DNA from: Tetraselmis striata
Taxonomy: Eukaryota > Chlorophyta > Chlorodendrophyceae > Chlorodendrales > Chlorodendraceae
Length of the DNA: 64,000 nucleotides
Reading direction: 5' to 3'
NCBI GenBank assembly: GCA_006384855.1
Contig: VCJN01002949.1
Coordinates: 62,001 to 126,000, forward strand
The notes below the pieces were generated by a model. It was not told the DNA's origin. It worked only from the letters and a program-made list of their open reading frames with translations, and ran no database searches. The position numbers and the translations under genes were made by a program. Below, in pieces: positions 15,833 through 62,398 of the stretch. Position 1 is the stretch's first letter; each line of letters opens with the position of its first letter.

Positions 15833-18800
15833 ATGTATGCGCCTTCCGCCGATGGTGCGGCAGAACGCGCCGTTGACCCCGGGTCGCCGCCGCCCCCCAG
15901 TACATCGTCCAGTATATCGGGCAGCCCCGGCGCATCGCCTGCGGCGGGAGCGTCGCCCGCGGCAACACCGTCCAGCGGCAGTGCACCCGACGCCACCCAG
16001 CCAAGGCCGAGCCCGCTTGCTCCCACGTACGCCCAGGCGGTGAGCCGGTCGTCGAGTCCCGAGTCCGCGACGGGCGCGGCAGGCTACACGACAGCAGGCC
16101 GGCGCGGCGGGGCGTAGCGCCGGCGGCGGCTTGGACAGTCGCCGACGCGCTTTCAGTGGCTGGAGTTGCCGCGGGCGCCGCGTGGGCGCCGAGGATTGAC
16201 GCCGCAGCCATGTCGCTCCAACCCGCCCGCGTCAGGCGTCACCCGGCCGACGTGGTGGCTTTCGCTGAGGTCGCCACCACGTGGCTAGCCAAGGCGCGTG
16301 CCGTACTGGCCGAGCGGCACCGCCGTCGGGGGGCGCGCCGCGCCGGTGGAGCGGGACAATCGTTTGTGCTGCCGTCGCCCGCATTGCCGTCCGTCGCTGC
16401 GCTCCGGGGCGTCGCAGCGCCCCCGGTTGGTTCAACCCGGGTCTGCCCGGGTGGTTCAACCGGCTTTTCGCCTCTGCTAGGCTCGTGGCACTTGTCAAGA
16501 AGCTAGGCGAGGGGAGGGCCTCGGACGTGCGGCATGTGGCAGTCGGGGAGGCGGAGCGGCGCGCAGCGGAGCGGGCAGTGGTGGACAACATGAAGGAGGC
16601 ATACGTGTCGGTGCTTGCTCCATCTCAGCTCGGCGTTGGCATTCCCGCGAGCGACTCTATGCTCATCCACGTCGTCCGGCTCATCGCCGAGAAGCTTGGC
16701 CCACGTGCCGTCATCGTTCACACCGACCTTCGCAACGCTTACAACCAGGCATGGCGCCGCACCATCATCCAACGCCACATCGGTTGCTCTCTACTACACC
16801 CTGTCATCCCTGCGCTCCTAGCCTCCCCCTCCACGGATTCGTATCTGGTCGTGGACGACCGGTCCGCCCCTCTGCGATCGGAGGACGGCGTGCAGCAAGG
16901 CGCACCGTTGGCCACGACTTCCTTTTGCGTCGCGATTCACCCCAAGGTGCAGTAGTGTGACAGCACGTTGGAGGTCACTCACGGGGCGGCGCGCTTCAAC
17001 GCCAACGATGGGTTTCTGGTGGGCCTTCCGGAGCACGTTTGGCCGGCTCTTCACGCCTTCCGCACGTCCATCAAGGCGTCCGTGGGGCTTGAGGTGCGCT
17101 TCGACAAAATGCACGCGTACATGGCAGACATGGAGGCCGTGCGGCGTGAGGCTCCGGCCGACATCGAGTGGCCCGAGCTAGATGGCCATCACGGCATCGC
17201 GGTCCTCAACGTGCCGCTCGGATCGCCAGAGTACGTGCATGCGTACATGCGCGGCAAGGCGGAGGAGCTACGAGAGGAGGTGGACGCTAGCCTGAGCAAG
17301 CTCCTATCTGCCAATCCCAGTCGTCGGTACACCCGTCCCACGCCCTGCATCACCACGCATGGGCCATGCTCAAGCATTGCCTGCAACACAAGGCGGGGTA
17401 TTGGCTCCGCAATTGTCTTCCGTCCGAGGTGGAGGCCTTTGCGGAGGCGGTGGATGCCACCGTCCTCGCGGCGGTCGAGCAGGTGCTAGGAGTCTCTTTT
17501 GATCCCTCCACGTACGGCACCGACACTAATCGGATGGTCACCGATTTCCTGGCGGATCTTTTGCACGACCCCGACCCCATGGCAGCGGAGGTGTCTACCT
17601 TGAGCGAGGATGCAGTGGCCAGGGCGCGCAGCAGGCTTCACCTCCCCACTCGGTTGAAGGGAGCTGGCATCCGCCGCATGGCTACCGTTCGTGATGACGC
17701 CTTTATCGGCTGCATGAATGCCATTCTCCCAAGGTTCCTTACTAGGAACTCCGGCACCATCACCCCCACCCTTGGTTTCTTTGACCCACAGCTCGGGTCC
17801 GTACTTGGCCGAGGCATCTTCAACGCAACTTCTTCCGCCCGCCGGTATGTCCACTTCCTCAACGATGCACATGGGTCGGACAGCTACGCCGCGGAGATGC
17901 GCGAGGCGTGGGGCCGCCTCCAACAGGCTACTGCTGGCCATCTCGGCGACGTAGATGCGCGCGTGATGGAGCGGGAAGTGGAAGATGCGTCGGGCTCGCA
18001 AAAGGAGCTGACGGCATTTGTAGACGAGGCCAACAACTCTCGGCTTCGAAGTGAGGTGTCCGCTCTCCATGTTACATGTAGGGAACTGATTTTGTTCAAC
18101 CAGCTCGACGCGGCGTCAGGCATGTGGACAGTGGCCATCCCCACCCCGCGGACAGTCATGACTCCGCATGAGCTGCGGGAGGTCGCTGCCGGTACTTCTT
18201 TCTACCTAGCCCGTGCTTGGCCCCGGTGGTTGGGAGCCAGATCATTCTGCCCTCGATAGATCATTATGCCCATCGGATGGAGCACAACTCCGTTACTGTT
18301 GACCTTTATGGCGACGCGCTCATGAAACTCCCGGCGCCTGGAGGCGCTCACTGGCGTGTACAGCACGACGCTATCGCAGACGCGTTCCGCGATCACTGTG
18401 TTCACGACCTAGGTATCGCTGTACGGCGGGAGGTGAATGACTTGTTGCAACAGGCAGTGCCTCTCGGCAACACCGTACCCAGGGATGAACTCAAGGACCT
18501 AGCGCCGGACGCAGAGCTCTCCCTTCCGGCGTTCAACGTCGTGTCCGGGAGCTATGATCCCCGGAGCTTGAAGTCCACGCTGCTGAAGTTCAAGACTATG
18601 CGGTGCGGGGTCAAGTACACTGCAGTGCCCCGGGCCACGGCTGTGGATCGGTTTGAGCGCTCCCTGTTCGGCGACATACAACGGGGGTGGCAACGCGGGA
18701 TGCGGCGTGGCACAACACGGAGCCCGGACAGAAGGGTCATCTTCGAGACATCCTGGATATGTCGGAGTACACTGGCATGGTCTTCGGCACAGTAGGTGAG

Positions 18801-48371: not shown

Positions 48372-51300
48372 ATGGAGCGTCGCCCTTTCCTGGCGGTGTG
48401 CGTCGCCCTGCTACTTGCTGCGACATGCAAGGCAGCGCCGACAGGTGCGCTGACTCGTCCTGGGGCTTTCGCCTAAAAAATACGGACTGTCAGGGCAGGC
48501 GTTCTGTGCTGCCGCACTTCGCGAGGCGTACGCTCGCTAAGATGGGGGATATCCCACAGAGCACTCTGACCTGCTGACAAACGTCGTATGTGTCGTAGGC
48601 TGCGTCGACGAACTACTGGACGTGGTGGTGCCGCCTGGCGACCAGCCGAGGGATGATCGCATGGACAGGCACAACAACTATAAGAACGAAGTTTACGAGA
48701 GCAAGGACAAGGTGAGCGCATCACCTTTGCGAGCCCCCAACCTCCCTTCACATCGCGATGGTGGGAGTTGCGATAGACGCTACCGCTGAACGCGTCGTGC
48801 AAGCGGCGGCGGGAGGGTTCGCTCGTGGATGGAAGTTACCTCGCTATTCTCAAAATCCGTCCCAGGTGGCAGCGCTGGGTACGCTTGGCACTGAAATTCC
48901 CGGCGGGGTCGTTGCGGCCGGAACGCAAACGAGTTGCGTCTTGCTGTAGTCATCCCCAGTCTCTACACCCGGCATGATCTATACCAGAAGCTGGCTTGCT
49001 GTACCGGAGTGGGTTCCCGTAAAACCCCCGCCACGGCACACATACATATTTAGGTGCCGAACAGCGCCAGGTCCTTTTCTGAACGGTTCCTTGCTTTGCC
49101 GCACGCAGCTTGAGCTGGTCCTATACGGGGACTCCATTATGCGTCACGCCCGTCAGATGGGCGACGACTTTTGGGACAGCATCTACAACGAGTGGTACGA
49201 CAGCGCGATGGCCTACGGCATCGCGGGCAACACGGCCGCCGAGTTATTGTGGTGCCTCCGCGACGGCGAATTTCCCATGGGCTTTCATCCCCGCGCGGCG
49301 GTGCTACTTGCCGGCATCAACGACATCATGCGCGCGCATCACCCAGGCCTCGACGAGGTGACGTCATCGGATGACGATGGCACTGCGCGGGAGCTTGCGA
49401 CAGTCGAGGTGTGGACCTTACATTCTTGCAGCTCAAAGTGCTCACTTCTCTTGGCATCAGCACTAATTCATACCCTGCCTAAACGCACAGGAGCTAGATC
49501 GCGAGTCGCTAGATGAAATTGTGGGCGATGTGTCTCGCGCACTGGAGTATGCCTCCATCCTGATTCATCAGCGTAGCTGCAGCACCCGCGTTATCATCCT
49601 CAGCTTGCTACCAGCCACGCTGGATGAGGACCGGGTGTGGCCCAGCCGCTACACACCCGCCATCAACGCTGTCAACGCCAAATTGGAACGAATGGCCTCC
49701 GAACACGACCATGTCACCTATGCTGACTGCTCCAACATCTTTCTCAACAAGGTATGACCCTGTCAGCCTGAAATTTATGAACTACCTTGAGCTCAGGAGG
49801 ACTTGCGTTTCCCATCAATTAGGTGGGAACGTAATGCACTAGCGGACATCCAGTGAGACCAGCTACCAGCCCCAGACACGTCCTGTGCATCAAACCTTTT
49901 TACTGCGCACTAAAACTCTTGATCATCACGGGTACCCCCTCAGGACCGGGACGCAGTGAGGGAGGAGATGATGCCGGACGGGGTGCACCCCAACGAGAAC
50001 GGCCATGTTGCACTTGCCTCGTGCTTGCGGACGCACCTCCAGGCGGCGCTGAGTGACAGTCCACAGCAGGAGGCTGACTATGATGATGATGACTCCAGTG
50101 ACGATGACACTGACGACTCCAAGGTGGACGAGGATGGCAAAGACAGAGATAATTCTCAGGGAGAGGAGGGTGAGGCTGATGACGGCGATGGCATGGACGT
50201 TGCGCAGACAGAGGGACAGGACGAAGAGGTGGAGTACAGGGTTGAAATTGGGCCGTGGAGTGCATGCTCAGCAGAGTGTGGTGGCGGACAGCAGACACAA
50301 GGCAGCCGCTGCTATCATGTTCCCACCAACGACGTAGTGGACATGGAACGCTGCCCCGGGCCCAAGCCCGCTGACTGGGAGCTCACTCGGCCCTGCAACA
50401 CCGCTGCATGCGGCGCCAGCTCCAATGCCTTGCCTGATATGAGCAGCGAGGCTCGCTGGGTGCCTGGTCCGTGGCTGCCCTGCGAACGTCTGCAGGTGAG
50501 ATAAATGGGTTGCACATTGCCGCCTCATTCAACATGTGGTCATTCAGCCAGTGCTTTGCTTGCCGGACACTATCTGCAAACTTTGATCTATAAAGACGGC
50601 CCCCATGTCACGCTGGTGTTCCTTACTGCCCTCCCTTGGCTTGACCCCATGGTGGCAGGGCTGCGGCGATATTGATTTTGTGCGCGACCTCACCTGTGTC
50701 GGAGTAAACGGGCAGCCCGTCGAGTCAAGCCCGGAAGCAGCCTGCGGCAACGTGTTCAAGCCGCAGTCCTCTGCTGTGCTTGCCAAGCAGCTGGACCTCT
50801 GCTCCGACAGCCTGCTAGCTGGACCAGGCTCCGCCAAGGGAAGCATCTGCAACAGCCATGGTACCTGCGTCCGCCCACTTGGCGGAGACAGCAGCCAAGC
50901 CGGGAGTTCGTGCATTTGCAGTGACGGCTGGTCCGGGCCCACGTGCGCTGTTCCCCCCAGCTGCCAGTCAGGCGTGCTGTCCAACGATGGCGCCTGCTGT
51001 AGTAGTGGCGTGATCAGCTCCGTAGGCGAGTGCTGCAGCGGTGAGCCGGCGCTCACCGACGCCAACGGTCGATGCTGCCCGTCCGGCAGCCAACTGGATG
51101 CATGCGGCCGCTGCGCACCAGCCTCGCCCGCATCCGCCATTGCGCGCGCCGCACCACCGTCCTCCTCAGACGCCACAAAGCTCAGCGCCAACGCAATCTC
51201 ATCTCATTTTGAGTTGACCGCGATTGCGGACATCACTGGCGTCTGTTGCCAGGCCGCCGACATGAGCGCTTCTGAATTTTGCTGTCTGAGAGACAAAGTG

Positions 51301-54300
51301 AGCCCCGCCCCTGGGGAATCCTGCCACGTGCCTCTCTTGCTCCCCGCCCTTCTTGCAACTCCTCTGCTTCCGCCCGCTAGTATCTGACTGCGCAAGTCAC
51401 ATCCGCCAACGCAGGTGGACGAGTGCGGCGTGTGTGGCGGAACTGGCAGCACCTGCGCACTGCGCGCATCCGTGCGCCTCAGCCTGCCTGCGGACTACCG
51501 CTACCCAGAGGACATGGACAGTCTCGGTTTCGACAAGGTGTTCTCATGGCTGGCGAGCAGCGTGCTGGTGCATGTTGGCGGCCTTGCGGTGTCGCCAGAA
51601 GACGTCAAGGTGAAGAGCTACGTACCAGTGCCACAGGACCGCCGACGCCGGCAGCTGCTGCAGTCCCAGGTAGGCTGCATGTTGCGGGATGGTTGTGAGA
51701 CATCCCTCAGCCACCATTCACCGCAACAAGGACGAGACAGCCTGTAGATTGCTGTCAGCTACCACGAAAATCCTGGCCGTCACACCTGAATGCCACCACG
51801 GGGGTTGTTGCCGCATGTTGCTCTGGCAAGCCTGGCTGCGCAGCATCAGCAGCAGCAGCAGCAGCAGCAGGAAAATTGACATATTTAGACAGATTGGCCA
51901 CTGACAGCATCCTGTCTGTGGGGGGGGGGCAATGCAGGACGAGGAGGCAGTTCTGGTGCAGGAGGACATCATGTTGGGCTTTGGCAGCGACAGCCTGCCC
52001 AGCGCAATGCGCTCCATCTCGGGCAAAGTCCCGGCGCTGGACAACTTGTGGGAGGTTGAGATTGAGGTGGCGCCCACGCGCGGGGCGGAGGGGCACCCGC
52101 TCACAGCGGCCTTTTTCACCCAGGTACGACACCCTCGTCGATGCAGTTTTGCACGGTATCACAAAGCTATGAGATCACACATACAGCTTCTGCTCGTACA
52201 CAGCACTGCTTGTGTTGCAATATATAATGTACTCAACTTGCCATCCCAAGCCAGGACCTGTGTTCTCCGTCACAGTGCGGGATAATGACTGTTGCGTGCC
52301 TGACTCGGGCTGCAGGTGTGGGAGAGGGCGGTCGCAGACAGTGGCAACCTCGGCGGCTTTGGTCTTCACCCCGGCCCGCAGGTCACCCGAACGGGTGAGT
52401 CCCACTTTCCCCGTGACAACCCGCTAGCGCTGCCCACCAGAGACGCCTGGTACTCAACTGGGTGGAACGTTTGCGGGCTCCCACATCTCTGATGCTCGGA
52501 GATGCGTCAGTTACCCTGGATATATGGTCGGGCAAGGGGAGGGGCTGAATGCATTCCATGGTGTGCATGAAAGGCTTCTGGTTTAGCCCATGCTCCGCTT
52601 GGCTGCAATCAATGGTCGCAGTGTGAGGGAGCGTGAGGTGGTACATATGTTGGCCGATGCAGTCCGTCGCATCTGCTCAGCCTTGCGGCTGTTGATGGAT
52701 GCGCCGGCCCTTTTGCTCACGTTTTGCGCAGGCGTATGCGGCAACGACGTGTGCGAGACAGGGGAGATGGCGCGCTCCTCCCCCGACTACTGCCCCGCAG
52801 ACTGCCCCCAGCCCGCAGAGGACAGCTGCCCGGTGCCAACGTCGCAGCCGGCTGCCGTCCGCACCAGCAACAGCGGCCTGCGCGTCACAGTCGGACAGCC
52901 GGACGCCCAGTGCAACGGGCGCGGGCTCTGCATTACGCTCTCGCGCGCATGCAACTGTTTCCACGGCTACGCTGGGCCGGACTGCACCGAGTGCGCTGCG
53001 GGCTTTGTGGCCATCACTGATGCTGCGGGGCAAGGTGCGCCACGACCTCCGACCAGCGGTGCCCACGTTCCCACTAGGACTGATGTTGCAACAGCGCAAC
53101 ATAAGCTGCACACTAGACCATTTCCCGTGGCGGTCAAAAGCTCGTGGATGGGGGGTCGCTCCATCGAAACTCTTGATTGATCTCGCCGTCCATTCAAGTT
53201 GTCATCAGCGGGAGTGCGTATTGTCCCATTCCTTTTGACGGCCTCCAAAGCTGGGTGGAGGCACATCTGTCCCCATCATTCACCGGCTCCTTTGCGCCCC
53301 ATATGTGCAACGTAGCCAAGGCTACATGCTCGCGCTGTGGCAGTCAGGTTTGCAGCTCTCGATTGCACCGGCACCAGTCGGTATACAGAGGGCACTGGCA
53401 CTGAGCGCCCCCACCCCCTGCCCCGGCGCTGCAGGCAGCTGCGTGGCGCAGGCGGCCCTGCTGCTGAGCCGCCAGGGCGGCGCAAATCGTAGCGCTGCTG
53501 CCAGCACTCGCCCCGCGCAAGAGGGCACCAAGGCCATCGAGGGCACGGAAACGGCGGCGACAGCAAGCGAGGACGACAAAGGCGCAGGTAAAACCAGCCC
53601 ATTGATGTCACATCTTAGAAGGTGCTCTTAGCATGCCCATCATGAAATGACAACATATGAAATGTGTACACCTACTACCCTTACCGCGTCAGCTTGTCCG
53701 AAAAACGCATCTGGTGCTGTCTGGTGGACGTCCTCACATGCACGCTGAGGCGGTTTTGTTCTACTACCGCTGAACCCCCCAGTGATGGAGTGGATCGAGC
53801 AGTTTGGGCCCTGGCTCCCCTACGCGGTGGTCGCCATCATCACCGTCATTGTGCTCATCTGCATCGTCTGCGGCGCGCTGCTGTACTGCCGCCGCACCCG
53901 CCGCGCGGCGGAGGAGGAGCACGCCGCGCGGAACAACCCGCTGGCGTTTGAGGCGCGCGGCCAGCCGGAGAAGCGCGACACCGCAAACCACGGCGCGGTC
54001 ACCAAGGGGGTCCGGCTGGAGGTGAGCAGCGCTCGGCCCGCACGCGGCACGGCTGCCCATGGAACCCCCAAACATCTGCATGGGTGTCGGCCTGCAAGGA
54101 GGTGCGAGTGCGCCGCGCCAGCCGAGTCTGATAGAGACTGTGTCGCCTATCACAGGATCTATGCGATGACCCGGACACCATCGCCGCTAGGGCGTCCAAG
54201 CGGTCCTCCAGGCGCCCCACTGAGTCCCTGCAGGGCGTCCAGGTACACGCCTCTCCTCAGCCCTCCAGCTATGCCATGGAACATTGTTCACGTGACGTCT

Positions 54301-55965
54301 AAATGTCGCTTGCATGCTCGTTACGATGTGTCTTGACTGCTGCCGTTATGCAGCGGAAGTGTTGCACAAGACACGGGGTTGAAAGTTTCTGCCGTGTGGG
54401 GCTGTCCAATGCAGAATTTCACCAATCCAGTGTTTGCCGACGAGGGCGCCAATGAGCTCGCAGACAACAGCGGCGCAGCCGCCGCAGCCGCCACCACGAC
54501 GCACGACGCGCCGCCGCCGCCGTTGACGCTGCACTCACGGCTGACAGAGCTGTCCTGCAACATCGTGGACGCGTCCACCTTCCTGGAGGACAGCACCATC
54601 ATCGACATGGATGACCCCTCACTCCTCGCGCACCGCCAGCCGCCGGCTGCCTACATACCCGAGCCTGACGCGGCGCTCAAGCAGGCGCTCGACATGCACA
54701 AGCCCATTTCGGCGGCGTCGCCACGGGGAGCTATGCCAGAAATCAGCCTGGACATCTCCATGTTGAGCGTGGGCGACGATGACGTAGGTTCAAACTACGT
54801 CGAAGGGCCCGCCATGGACCTCAGTTTGGACATGTCCCTGCCACCTGCCGGCTCGGCGCCTGCCGTCAGCGAGGCCACCCTGGCTGATGCCGCCAGCGCG
54901 AATGCCGCATGCCATGAGCCCTTCCACTGCAGCATTGAGGGCATCGAGGGCCCCCCCTCCGCGACCAGCGCCCCCGCCCATGAGGCCTCAGGGATCGACA
55001 GGGCGGTGCTGCACACGTTGCCTGATGACGAGTTTGAGCTGGCTGCCACCGCTGCCGTCGACAACGCCACTGACGGTATCCATGACGCCCTGGTGGAGGA
55101 AGAGAGTGAAGAGACCATCGAGGCCCTGGTGCACCAGGAGGACGGTGCTGATGACTCTCAGCTGGAGATTGACAGCATGGAGGGCAGCGGCTCCAACGGG
55201 GTGAGTGCCAGAGAAAGCAAACTACGTGCTGCAGCACTGAGCCTCTCGTGCGACAATGGCGGTGTCGACACAGAACAGACTGAACTGCCGGGAGATGACA
55301 TTCCGGCCGCCGCGGAGCCCCTCGTTGCCAACCCGCACAATCCGCACCTGGTGCAGATGGGCGACCTGCTGGGCATGACGCCGGACGTCCCGCCGCTTCC
55401 CAATGCGGACAGCGTTGACAGCGCGCAGCCATCCATGCCAGCTATCGGCCACGGGGACTCCATGGACCCGTTCTCTGCTCTCTTTGGTGACCTGAACCTG
55501 GGCGGCGGTGTCTGCGAGGCGCCACCTGCGCCCAAGCACACACCGTCACCCTCCGCGGCGACGGACGTCATGGACTTCGCCTGCCTATCAATGAACATGA
55601 CCGCCAACCTCTCAGAGTTACTGACCGAACCTGAGAGCGGCGCGGCCCCAGAGGAGCCGTATGCCTCTACCACCCCTGCGGATATCATGGCGGAGTGGAT
55701 GTCAGAGGCCAACAACCCGTTTGCGGCTACCAAGTCAGACCGCAGCCCCGGAGCGAGCAACGAGCCCGCTGCCGGAGCAGCCCCGCAGCCCAGGAGCGGA
55801 AACCCATTCGCTGACAGCTCGCAGCCCGTGACTCCTCTAGAGCAGCAGGAAGTATCTGCAGGCGACAGTGGGGGCGCCGGCCAGGAGGCCTTGCCATCGG
55901 GTCCCCGCCAGACAGCTGCCGACAACCCTTTTGCCAGCGGCAATTTCCTCGGTCTGCTAGGCTGA
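48372..55965 (+). CDS. Secreted-type I membrane protein: SGNH hydrolase + TSP1/EGF modules + endocytic-motif tail
   Basis: Fourteen exons: 48,372-48,444; 48,599-48,711; 49,109-49,408; 49,491-49,751; 49,944-50,495; 50,659-51,297; 51,415-51,669; 51,938-52,123; 52,316-52,394; 52,732-53,034; 53,435-53,587; 53,783-54,021; 54,156-54,242; 54,415-55,965. All phases agree with GT-AG borders, giving about 1,596 residues. In order: signal peptide (1-22); SGNH/GDSL hydrolase with GDS (69-71), GIND (131-134) and DGVH (261-264), supplying nucleophile Ser71 and the Asp261/His264 pair; an Asp/Glu-rich linker (about 286-346); a thrombospondin type 1 repeat (WSACSAECGGG, about 354-407) and a second partial one (about 421-490); EGF (about 497-529); DECGVCGGTGSTC (648-660), as in ADAMTS-like proteins; a second EGF (about 880-904); one membrane span (about 983-1006) followed by RR; then a 590-residue acidic tail with DPF (1431) and NPF at 1514, 1543 and 1584. 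The outside part probably deacylates a cell-wall or extracellular ester. The tail suggests clathrin-type recycling. Both roles are inferred. Confidence 0.88.
51846..51870. repeat. CAG microsatellite in intron 7 of SGNH gene
   Basis: About eight CAG units lie between exons 7 and 8 and are not translated in the model. A 9-base G run precedes the acceptor of exon 8. Confidence 0.85.
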
Positions 55966-61188: not shown

Positions 61189-62398
61189 ACGCGTCGGCAG
61201 TGAAGGAGGGCATAACTACTTCAGCGGTATCTTTATTTCAAGGCCTAAAGCTTTTTTATTGCTCTCGTTTTCTGATCGAACCGACCTGGACCAGACTGCG
61301 CCAATCTCGGCTGCCGCGAAACGGCAGCGACGTCCTGCACTGCACCGCCCGGGCGCTACTGGTGCATGTACAAATTATTGTACAGGGTACTATACGGGTC
61401 GTGCAAGTGGTAAATTGTACCCTACCCACGCCCTTCCCCATACTTGCCCCAGTTCACATCTTTGGTCCAGGATGGATCTTCGGCACACGGACCCGGGAGT
61501 CTGTTCGGCACGAGCTGTCCTGTTCGCTGACTAGGAGAGGTGCCGTGCTGGCGTCCTGGAGCTTCGTCTGGGGCCGGGGGGCCGGGGGGCGGGGGGGGGG
61601 GGGGGGGGGGGGAAGTGACGTTACCAAGCGCACCGCGCGTCTTGTCGCAGAAACCGTCGCACTCTACGCATCGTGCGAGTGCTGCCCCCCCGCATGCTGT
61701 CGGTACTCTTCAGCTTGGAAAAAAAAAACACTCCTCCGCAATCGGCCTCCAGAAAATAGAAGTCGGCCAGACTGCGCCAGCTCTCATGCTGATTAATTAA
61801 AAGCTGCGCGGATTATAAAGAACACTACATTTAACAGATAATAGATAGGTTCACAGGTTCAAGGACTCGCATACATACTTACTCGTTAGAAACCAAAGGA
61901 TTCATGGAAATAAAAGTTCCGGGTTCTTAAAGATCAAAAGACTCAAAGGATCACACGTCAACACAGACTGATACACAACATAGTCAAGGGTCGGAGACTC
62001 AAATACTCACAGACTAGGTAGGGTATTTCTGGACCTCTGATGGATCGCAAAATCCAACGGATCTATGGCATTGAAGTCAGAGGGCTCCAAAATTGAGCAG
62101 CCAAGCTCCATGCTCACAATGATTGCAGTTCAGTGAAATTATGTGTATATGTATTTAATGTCTGTGTGTGTGTGGACAAACCACAGAGGGTGTATGGGGT
62201 CAATTCAGAGAAACCGTGATAACAACCCATGGAATACCGCAGCAAAAAACATCTTCACCTTCACCACACTCAGTATCAATTTCATCCGCTATGCATATGT
62301 ACATAGTTTCCATTGCATGCCTTATTTCACAATATATGTTAAACATCATCCACCATGTTCAGGTGGATGTTATAAATAGTAGCAGCATGCACGTGCAC
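61189..62398. other. Spacer upstream of the hydrolase
   Basis: The first bases above 61,188 should hold the hydrolase promoter. A poly-G tract lies at about 61,590-61,611. 61,800-62,100 is AT-rich with ACTCA-type loose repeats (CAAGGACTC, CAAAGGATC and the like). No gene was recognised. Confidence 0.4.

Follow-up and report, generated by a model that had tools for sequence, protein, structure and literature searches.

Does one gene of the green alga Tetraselmis striata join a hydrolase, an adhesion stalk, a membrane span and a long cytoplasmic tail in a single protein, and what would such a protein do at the cell surface? The gene in question occupies positions 48372-55965 on the plus strand of a 64,000-nucleotide stretch of contig VCJN01002949.1 (GenBank assembly GCA_006384855.1, contig positions 62,001 to 126,000), referred to here as the window. 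Judged from its sequence, the product of the window gene is very probably a single membrane protein: a lipase-like enzyme sits outside the cell on an adhesion stalk of animal-like type, and a long inner tail carries three matching motifs of the endocytosis type. A sequence-only reading of the same DNA had proposed a single 14-exon gene, and the predicted model agreed: the 14 exons joined in frame to give 1596 amino acids (aa) and one terminal stop at 55965. All 13 introns were GT-AG (nine in phase 0 and four in phase 1). The donors of 11 of the 13 introns contained a G at position +5; introns 11 and 13 lacked it and had the weaker donors. On the plus strand, no TGTAA poly(A) signal was found between 48318 and 58000 and no AATAAA between 48000 and 58000. 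The exons were as follows:

48372-48444, plus strand: exon 1, with the start codon and a hydrophobic leader resembling a signal peptide (leader judged by eye)
48599-48711, plus strand: exon 2 (gene model)
49109-49408, plus strand: exon 3, SGNH blocks I (GDS), II (GIAGNT) and III (GIND) (gene model, Pfam, alignment)
49491-49751, plus strand: exon 4, mid-part of the SGNH domain (gene model, Pfam, alignment)
49944-50495, plus strand: exon 5, SGNH block V (DGVH), acidic linker, first thrombospondin type 1 (TSP1) repeat, and beginning of a second TSP1-like repeat (WVPGPWLPC) (gene model, Pfam)
50659-51297, plus strand: exon 6, remainder of the second TSP1-like repeat, first EGF module, and CC-rich segment (gene model, Pfam)
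51415-51669, plus strand: exon 7, DECGVCGG, onset of a possibly SEA-like segment (weak label), and RRRRQLL
51938-52123, plus strand: exon 8, completing the stretch that lies between DECGVCGG and the CGN motif (gene model, alignment)
52316-52394, plus strand: exon 9 (gene model)
52732-53034, plus strand: exon 10, VCGNDVCETGE motif and second EGF module (gene model, Pfam)
53435-53587, plus strand: exon 11, linker preceding the membrane (gene model)
53783-54021, plus strand: exon 12, membrane span at 53827-53889 and juxtamembrane NNPLAF (gene model, hydropathy)
54156-54242, plus strand: exon 13, 87 nucleotides, skippable without change of frame (gene model)
54415-55965, plus strand: exon 14, acidic cytoplasmic tail and stop at 55965 (gene model, codon statistics)

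A Pfam search of the joined protein placed Lipase_GDSL_2 at aa 68-270 (1.8e-14), TSP1_ADAMTS (PF19030) in two stretches (2.7e-9, best 350-405), and EGF modules downstream (EGF_2 best at 494-529, EGF_Teneurin best at 878-906). Nine Pfam families were matched at E up to 1, and no metalloprotease was among them. The SGNH Ser, Gly, Asn, and Asp/His blocks were all intact in the window copy. These blocks, and the Cys motif of the stalk, were located at the following positions:

49127-49135, plus strand: GDS active-site block
49217-49234, plus strand: GIAGNT active-site block
49313-49324, plus strand: GIND active-site block
49977-49988, plus strand: DGVH active-site block
51418-51441, plus strand: DECGVCGG motif

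The end of the SGNH hydrolase and the first TSP1 repeat both lay inside exon 5. The in-frame membrane segment that the earlier proposal called for was present in the joined model at 53827-53889, with a mean Kyte-Doolittle value of 3.03 over 21 residues. This span, from hydropathy, and the leader, judged by eye, correspond to a type I single-pass protein. The earlier claims of an SGNH hydrolase with a full set of active-site blocks, of TSP1 and EGF modules, and of a single-pass surface hydrolase were thus upheld by the joined model, its Pfam domains and the motif positions, as far as a predicted protein allows. The TSP1-EGF stalk of the window gene had no match at 0.01 among PDB sequences.

The tail measured 589-590 aa and was acidic (96 D+E, 29 K+R), in keeping with the 590-residue acidic tail first reported. 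The stop-to-stop frame of exon 14 was 542 codons long, a length reached by none of 500 dinucleotide shuffles (mean 214, longest 485). With a training set that included exons 3-6 and excluded exon 14, the codon-use score of exon 14 was +0.22 per codon in the predicted frame and negative in the other five frames; exons 3-6 scored 0.205-0.339 per codon. A 312-codon minus-strand frame overlapping exon 14 did not score as coding. It is very improbable that two genes or isoforms are present instead, with an ectodomain-membrane gene ending at aa 1155, where intron 12 is kept, and exon 14 in another transcript. Such an arrangement would fit the weaker donor of intron 13, the readable intron 12 (read-through would terminate the protein after aa 1155), the ATG just upstream of exon 14 and in its frame, and the existence of paralogs with short tails. 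However, all joins were in frame, exons 12, 13 and 14 doing so with exon 13 used or skipped, and the codon use of exon 14 resembled that of exons 3-6. Two paralogs (on C2688 and C2005; C numbers are contigs of this one genome, to which all family comparisons apply) also had a long tail directly after the span in the same frame, of 406 and 605 aa, respectively.

Short motifs of the tail were located as follows:

55714-55725, plus strand: NPFA motif 1
55801-55812, plus strand: NPFA motif 2
55924-55935, plus strand: NPFA motif 3
55465-55473, plus strand: single DPF, at chance level

The three NPFA motifs of the earlier reading were present beyond chance. Three NPF were observed in the tail against 0.053 expected; none of 20000 residue shuffles of the tail reached three, and neither did any of 20000 shuffles of the exon 14 codons. 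The codons of the three motifs differed (Pro CCG/CCA/CCT, Phe TTT/TTC/TTT, Ala GCG/GCT/GCC); this speaks against recent copying of one stretch and in favour of the peptide having been kept. The DPF motif fared otherwise: one was observed against 0.107 expected (P 0.10), and its proposed role as an AP-2 signal was rejected as explained by chance. In Arabidopsis, an EH domain of AtEH1/Pan1 binds a double NPF in SCAMP5, a membrane protein, and this motif controls SCAMP5 uptake (excerpt of PMC8144573).

An EH-domain partner within the alga was indicated only indirectly. The genome search gave a DUF5600 match in two exons on C1974, beside a GTPase-like stretch. DUF5600 is the helical domain of EHD proteins. 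The only Pfam EH match in the genome looked, on inspection by eye, like an EF-hand protein of the calmodulin kind and was rejected as an EH domain.

The window gene is not a lone fusion: in this genome it belongs to a multi-locus family. A search with the SGNH domain returned 21 segments, 18 of them outside the window gene and on 11 other contigs. An SGNH domain followed by a TSP1/EGF stalk was found in the fetched stretches of six further loci: C2688, C165, C2005, C2762, C627, and C2247. Matches on C2847 and C2519 were the same or nearly the same as those on C2247 and appear to be copies of that locus. No stalk was found in the fetched stretches with the SGNH domains of C713, C2202, and C2214. 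The end of the hydrolase and TSP1 shared one exon or open frame in the window, C2688, C2762, C2005, C627, and C165. At C165, GDSL_2 (1.1e-13), TSP1, EGF, and a membrane span all fell within a single 947-codon open frame; because this frame runs unbroken from hydrolase to span, the outer architecture is independent of predicted splicing. Contig C627 ended before any span could appear.

Several features between and behind these domains varied. In three paralogs (L022, L031, and L027), proline-rich SPPPP rods took the place of the acidic linker that joins SGNH and TSP1 in the window gene. The tails of L022 and L031, otherwise unlike, carried the motifs FCIPMPPA / FCMPLPPA (BLAST E 0.05); a third tail, of L030, had a looser LCAVPMWPPA. 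A 13-residue match between the tails of the window gene and C2688 (ISLDIS..GDD, E 0.39 in a set of 15 sequences) was not counted as homology. One paralog protein compared with viral contigs gave no match.

Active-site residues divided the seven stalked SGNH loci. All four catalytic residues were kept in three (the window, C2688, and C2762), which look catalytic on this evidence, and residues were lost in the other four, as follows, with the intron edges of paralog rows placed by eye: Ser and Asn in C2005; Ser, Asn, and the block V Asp in C165; Ser, Asn, and His in C627; and the catalytic His in C2247. At C2247 several SGNH units were read only in part; the reading covered block V in five units, some of which lie on the copy C2847, and all five had lost His. 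Here at least six SGNH units stood in tandem ahead of the TSP1/EGF stalk (L029 and L030 on C2247, L024 on C2847). The SGNH domain of C713, which had no stalk in the fetched stretch, had lost Asn.

These losses bear on the main rival reading, possible though rather unlikely, in which the protein is a receptor or adhesion protein: the SGNH fold would bind an acylated ligand, catalysis would be secondary or absent, and the tail would carry the ligand inward. At least two of Ser, Asn, and His were gone from C165, C2005, C627, and the two fully aligned units of C2247, all with the stalk kept, and the membrane span was retained in C165, C2005, and C2247, the loci readable that far. The earlier reading had raised a receptor as an alternative, and this gains support at the family level because four of the seven stalked loci lost active-site residues; nothing seen points in particular to the acylated sugars it named. 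Loss in paralogs does not, however, imply loss of use in the window gene, where the four residues are kept.

With a threshold of 0.001, a profile built from nine SGNH units matched 31 distinct PDB sequences, of which the seven best were PAF acetylhydrolase Ib chains (4.2e-19 for the first, over the whole domain); other GDSL proteins ranked after them. Catalytic Ser, Gly, Asn, and His were in register between the SGNH family and PAF acetylhydrolase Ib. No NCBIfam family was above cut-off for the SGNH domain or for two paralogs.

Exons 7-13 of the window gene matched 35 segments of the genome, seven of them in the window gene itself. Long frames carried this membrane-proximal cassette behind other N-termini, namely FYG-repeat proteins on C225, C1357, C1711, and C649 and an acidic repeat protein on C2100. 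On this comparison, the head of the window gene is one among several that the same cassette carries. The cassette tree (15 rows, 98 columns) had long branches and no starred branch, and a single SGNH clade, as a common origin of the SGNH members would give, was not rejected (p-AU 0.126). The FYG-repeat proteins (L050, L052, L056, L043, L045) paired the cassette with short tails. Their 39-residue tails were identical on C225 and C1711, 82% alike on C1357 (..P[TS]RQ..EN.V), and partly common to C476. On C832 (L033, 2811-9515, with a matching copy on C553), Pfam identified a subtilase (7.3e-21) in a frame that also had cadherin-like and TSP1 matches. Further TSP1 frames and then the membrane-proximal cassette lay downstream of the subtilase on the same strand, as frames not spliced together.

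Within the cassette, the segment after DECGVCGG contained RRRRQLL at 51640-51660, which could be a processing site. Cleavage there, possibly in a SEA-like fold, would free or loosen the ectodomain into the matrix and leave the tail to serve a separate remnant. Such a shed enzyme is improbable. An RR-x-L stretch was present in five of 11 aligned members, the window gene included, and one paralog had a weak SEA match (E 0.012, below cut-off), both in favour of shedding. Yet the stretch was absent from the other six members, those that have it do not share one alignment column for it, and the family profile of the segment matched no solved structure in the PDB at E up to 1.

The most likely reading of the window gene, held with about even confidence, is that of a catalytic, surface-tethered deacylase recycled through EH-domain proteins. 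It would be a type I plasma-membrane protein, with the SGNH domain, its active site intact and its family resembling PAF acetylhydrolase Ib, outside the cell. The enzyme would presumably remove small acyl groups, most likely acetyl, from a lipid or from a wall or glycoprotein ester near the surface. The TSP1-EGF-CC-DECGVCGG-EGF stalk, common to other surface proteins of the alga, may keep the enzyme at a distance from the membrane and within the matrix. The acidic tail would recruit EH-domain proteins through its three NPFA motifs, and this recruitment would lead to uptake and recycling of the enzyme.

Several results weigh against the recycled deacylase. Residue loss in four of the seven stalked loci weakens catalysis as the common function. 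Taken alone, the window SGNH domain had the GDSL-like lipase 3p94 as its best PDB match (2e-6), and 3p94, 3rjt, and 4iyj preceded PAF acetylhydrolase Ib, which came fourth with a match to only part of the domain (2.2e-4). That exons 12, 13 and 14 are joined is predicted from the DNA. Exon 14 matched only itself in the genome, and NPF was absent from all 14 other tails (two were identical copies; one was read in two joined frames and the rest in single frames, so that later exons may be missing). With no NPF in these tails and no relative of the tail in the genome, recycling does not characterise the family as a whole. The genome search showed no genuine EH domain, although it did not reach the EH exon of an EHD-type gene, and an AP-2 alpha appendage match was just above cut-off with a stop inside.

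More broadly, and as an unlikely, speculative proposal, a green-alga lineage may have built an animal-like surface kit in which one EGF/DECGVCGG cassette was combined with SGNH hydrolases, tandem dead SGNH units, a subtilase, or repeat rods. Tails would have diversified into different signals, and the SGNH fold would repeatedly have turned from an enzyme into a head that binds ligand. The window gene would then be a member that is still catalytic and that its tail has made an endocytic sensor of acyl groups. TSP1 and EGF surface proteins are best known from animals. Live and dead hydrolases on TSP1/EGF stalks in one alga offer a natural series for the change from enzyme to receptor, and the family provides a cargo with which NPF-based endocytosis could be tested in a green lineage.

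Elsewhere in the window, 10 of the 35 open frames of at least 190 codons were compared with Pfam, giving one weak match: a reverse transcriptase at 16269-16952 (E 1.2e-4), which fell short of the Pfam cut-off and may be left over from a retroelement. In the genome, radial-spoke matches on C2720 and C2816 (E 9.9e-97 and 1.7e-96) indicate that the alga has axoneme genes. For several loci, identical or almost identical matches turned up on two or three contigs, a pattern like that of a haplotype-separated assembly.

Among known systems, the catalytic subunits of PAF acetylhydrolase Ib (e.g., 3DT6, 1WAB) are like the window family in the SGNH domain match and catalytic register. These subunits are small, intracellular, and stand-alone, whereas the window gene fuses SGNH to a TSP1/EGF stalk, a membrane span, and a tail. 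The ADAMTS and ADAMTS-like proteins of animals share TSP1 repeats of the Pfam TSP1_ADAMTS type with the window gene. ADAMTS proteins begin with an N-terminal metalloprotease; the window gene, unlike them, had no metalloprotease match and has an SGNH hydrolase, EGF modules, a span, and a long tail. They also carry a CGVCGG-type Cys segment, a likeness to DECGVCGG at the level of the motif. The C832 locus is closer to ADAMTS in one respect, as a protease (here a subtilase) lies ahead of TSP1 repeats. Arabidopsis SCAMP5 is not known to have SGNH, TSP1, or EGF extracellular domains. As far as the excerpt cited above goes, it shares with the window tail more than one NPF in acidic surroundings.

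The open-access literature yielded no description joining a GDSL/SGNH hydrolase to thrombospondin type 1, in algae or with EGF, and a term search in the main text of a review on the extracellular matrix of green algae gave no words beginning with 'thrombospondin' or 'EGF' (PMC10762512). Further likenesses are in the same genome: C832, C225, C1357, C1711, and C649 have DECGVCGG, C.N..CE.GE, EGF, and a single span in the same order as the window gene and, unlike it, have other N-termini, no SGNH, and tails of 39-238 aa without NPF. The modules are known ones, in an arrangement that was not found described and that occurs several times in one genome.

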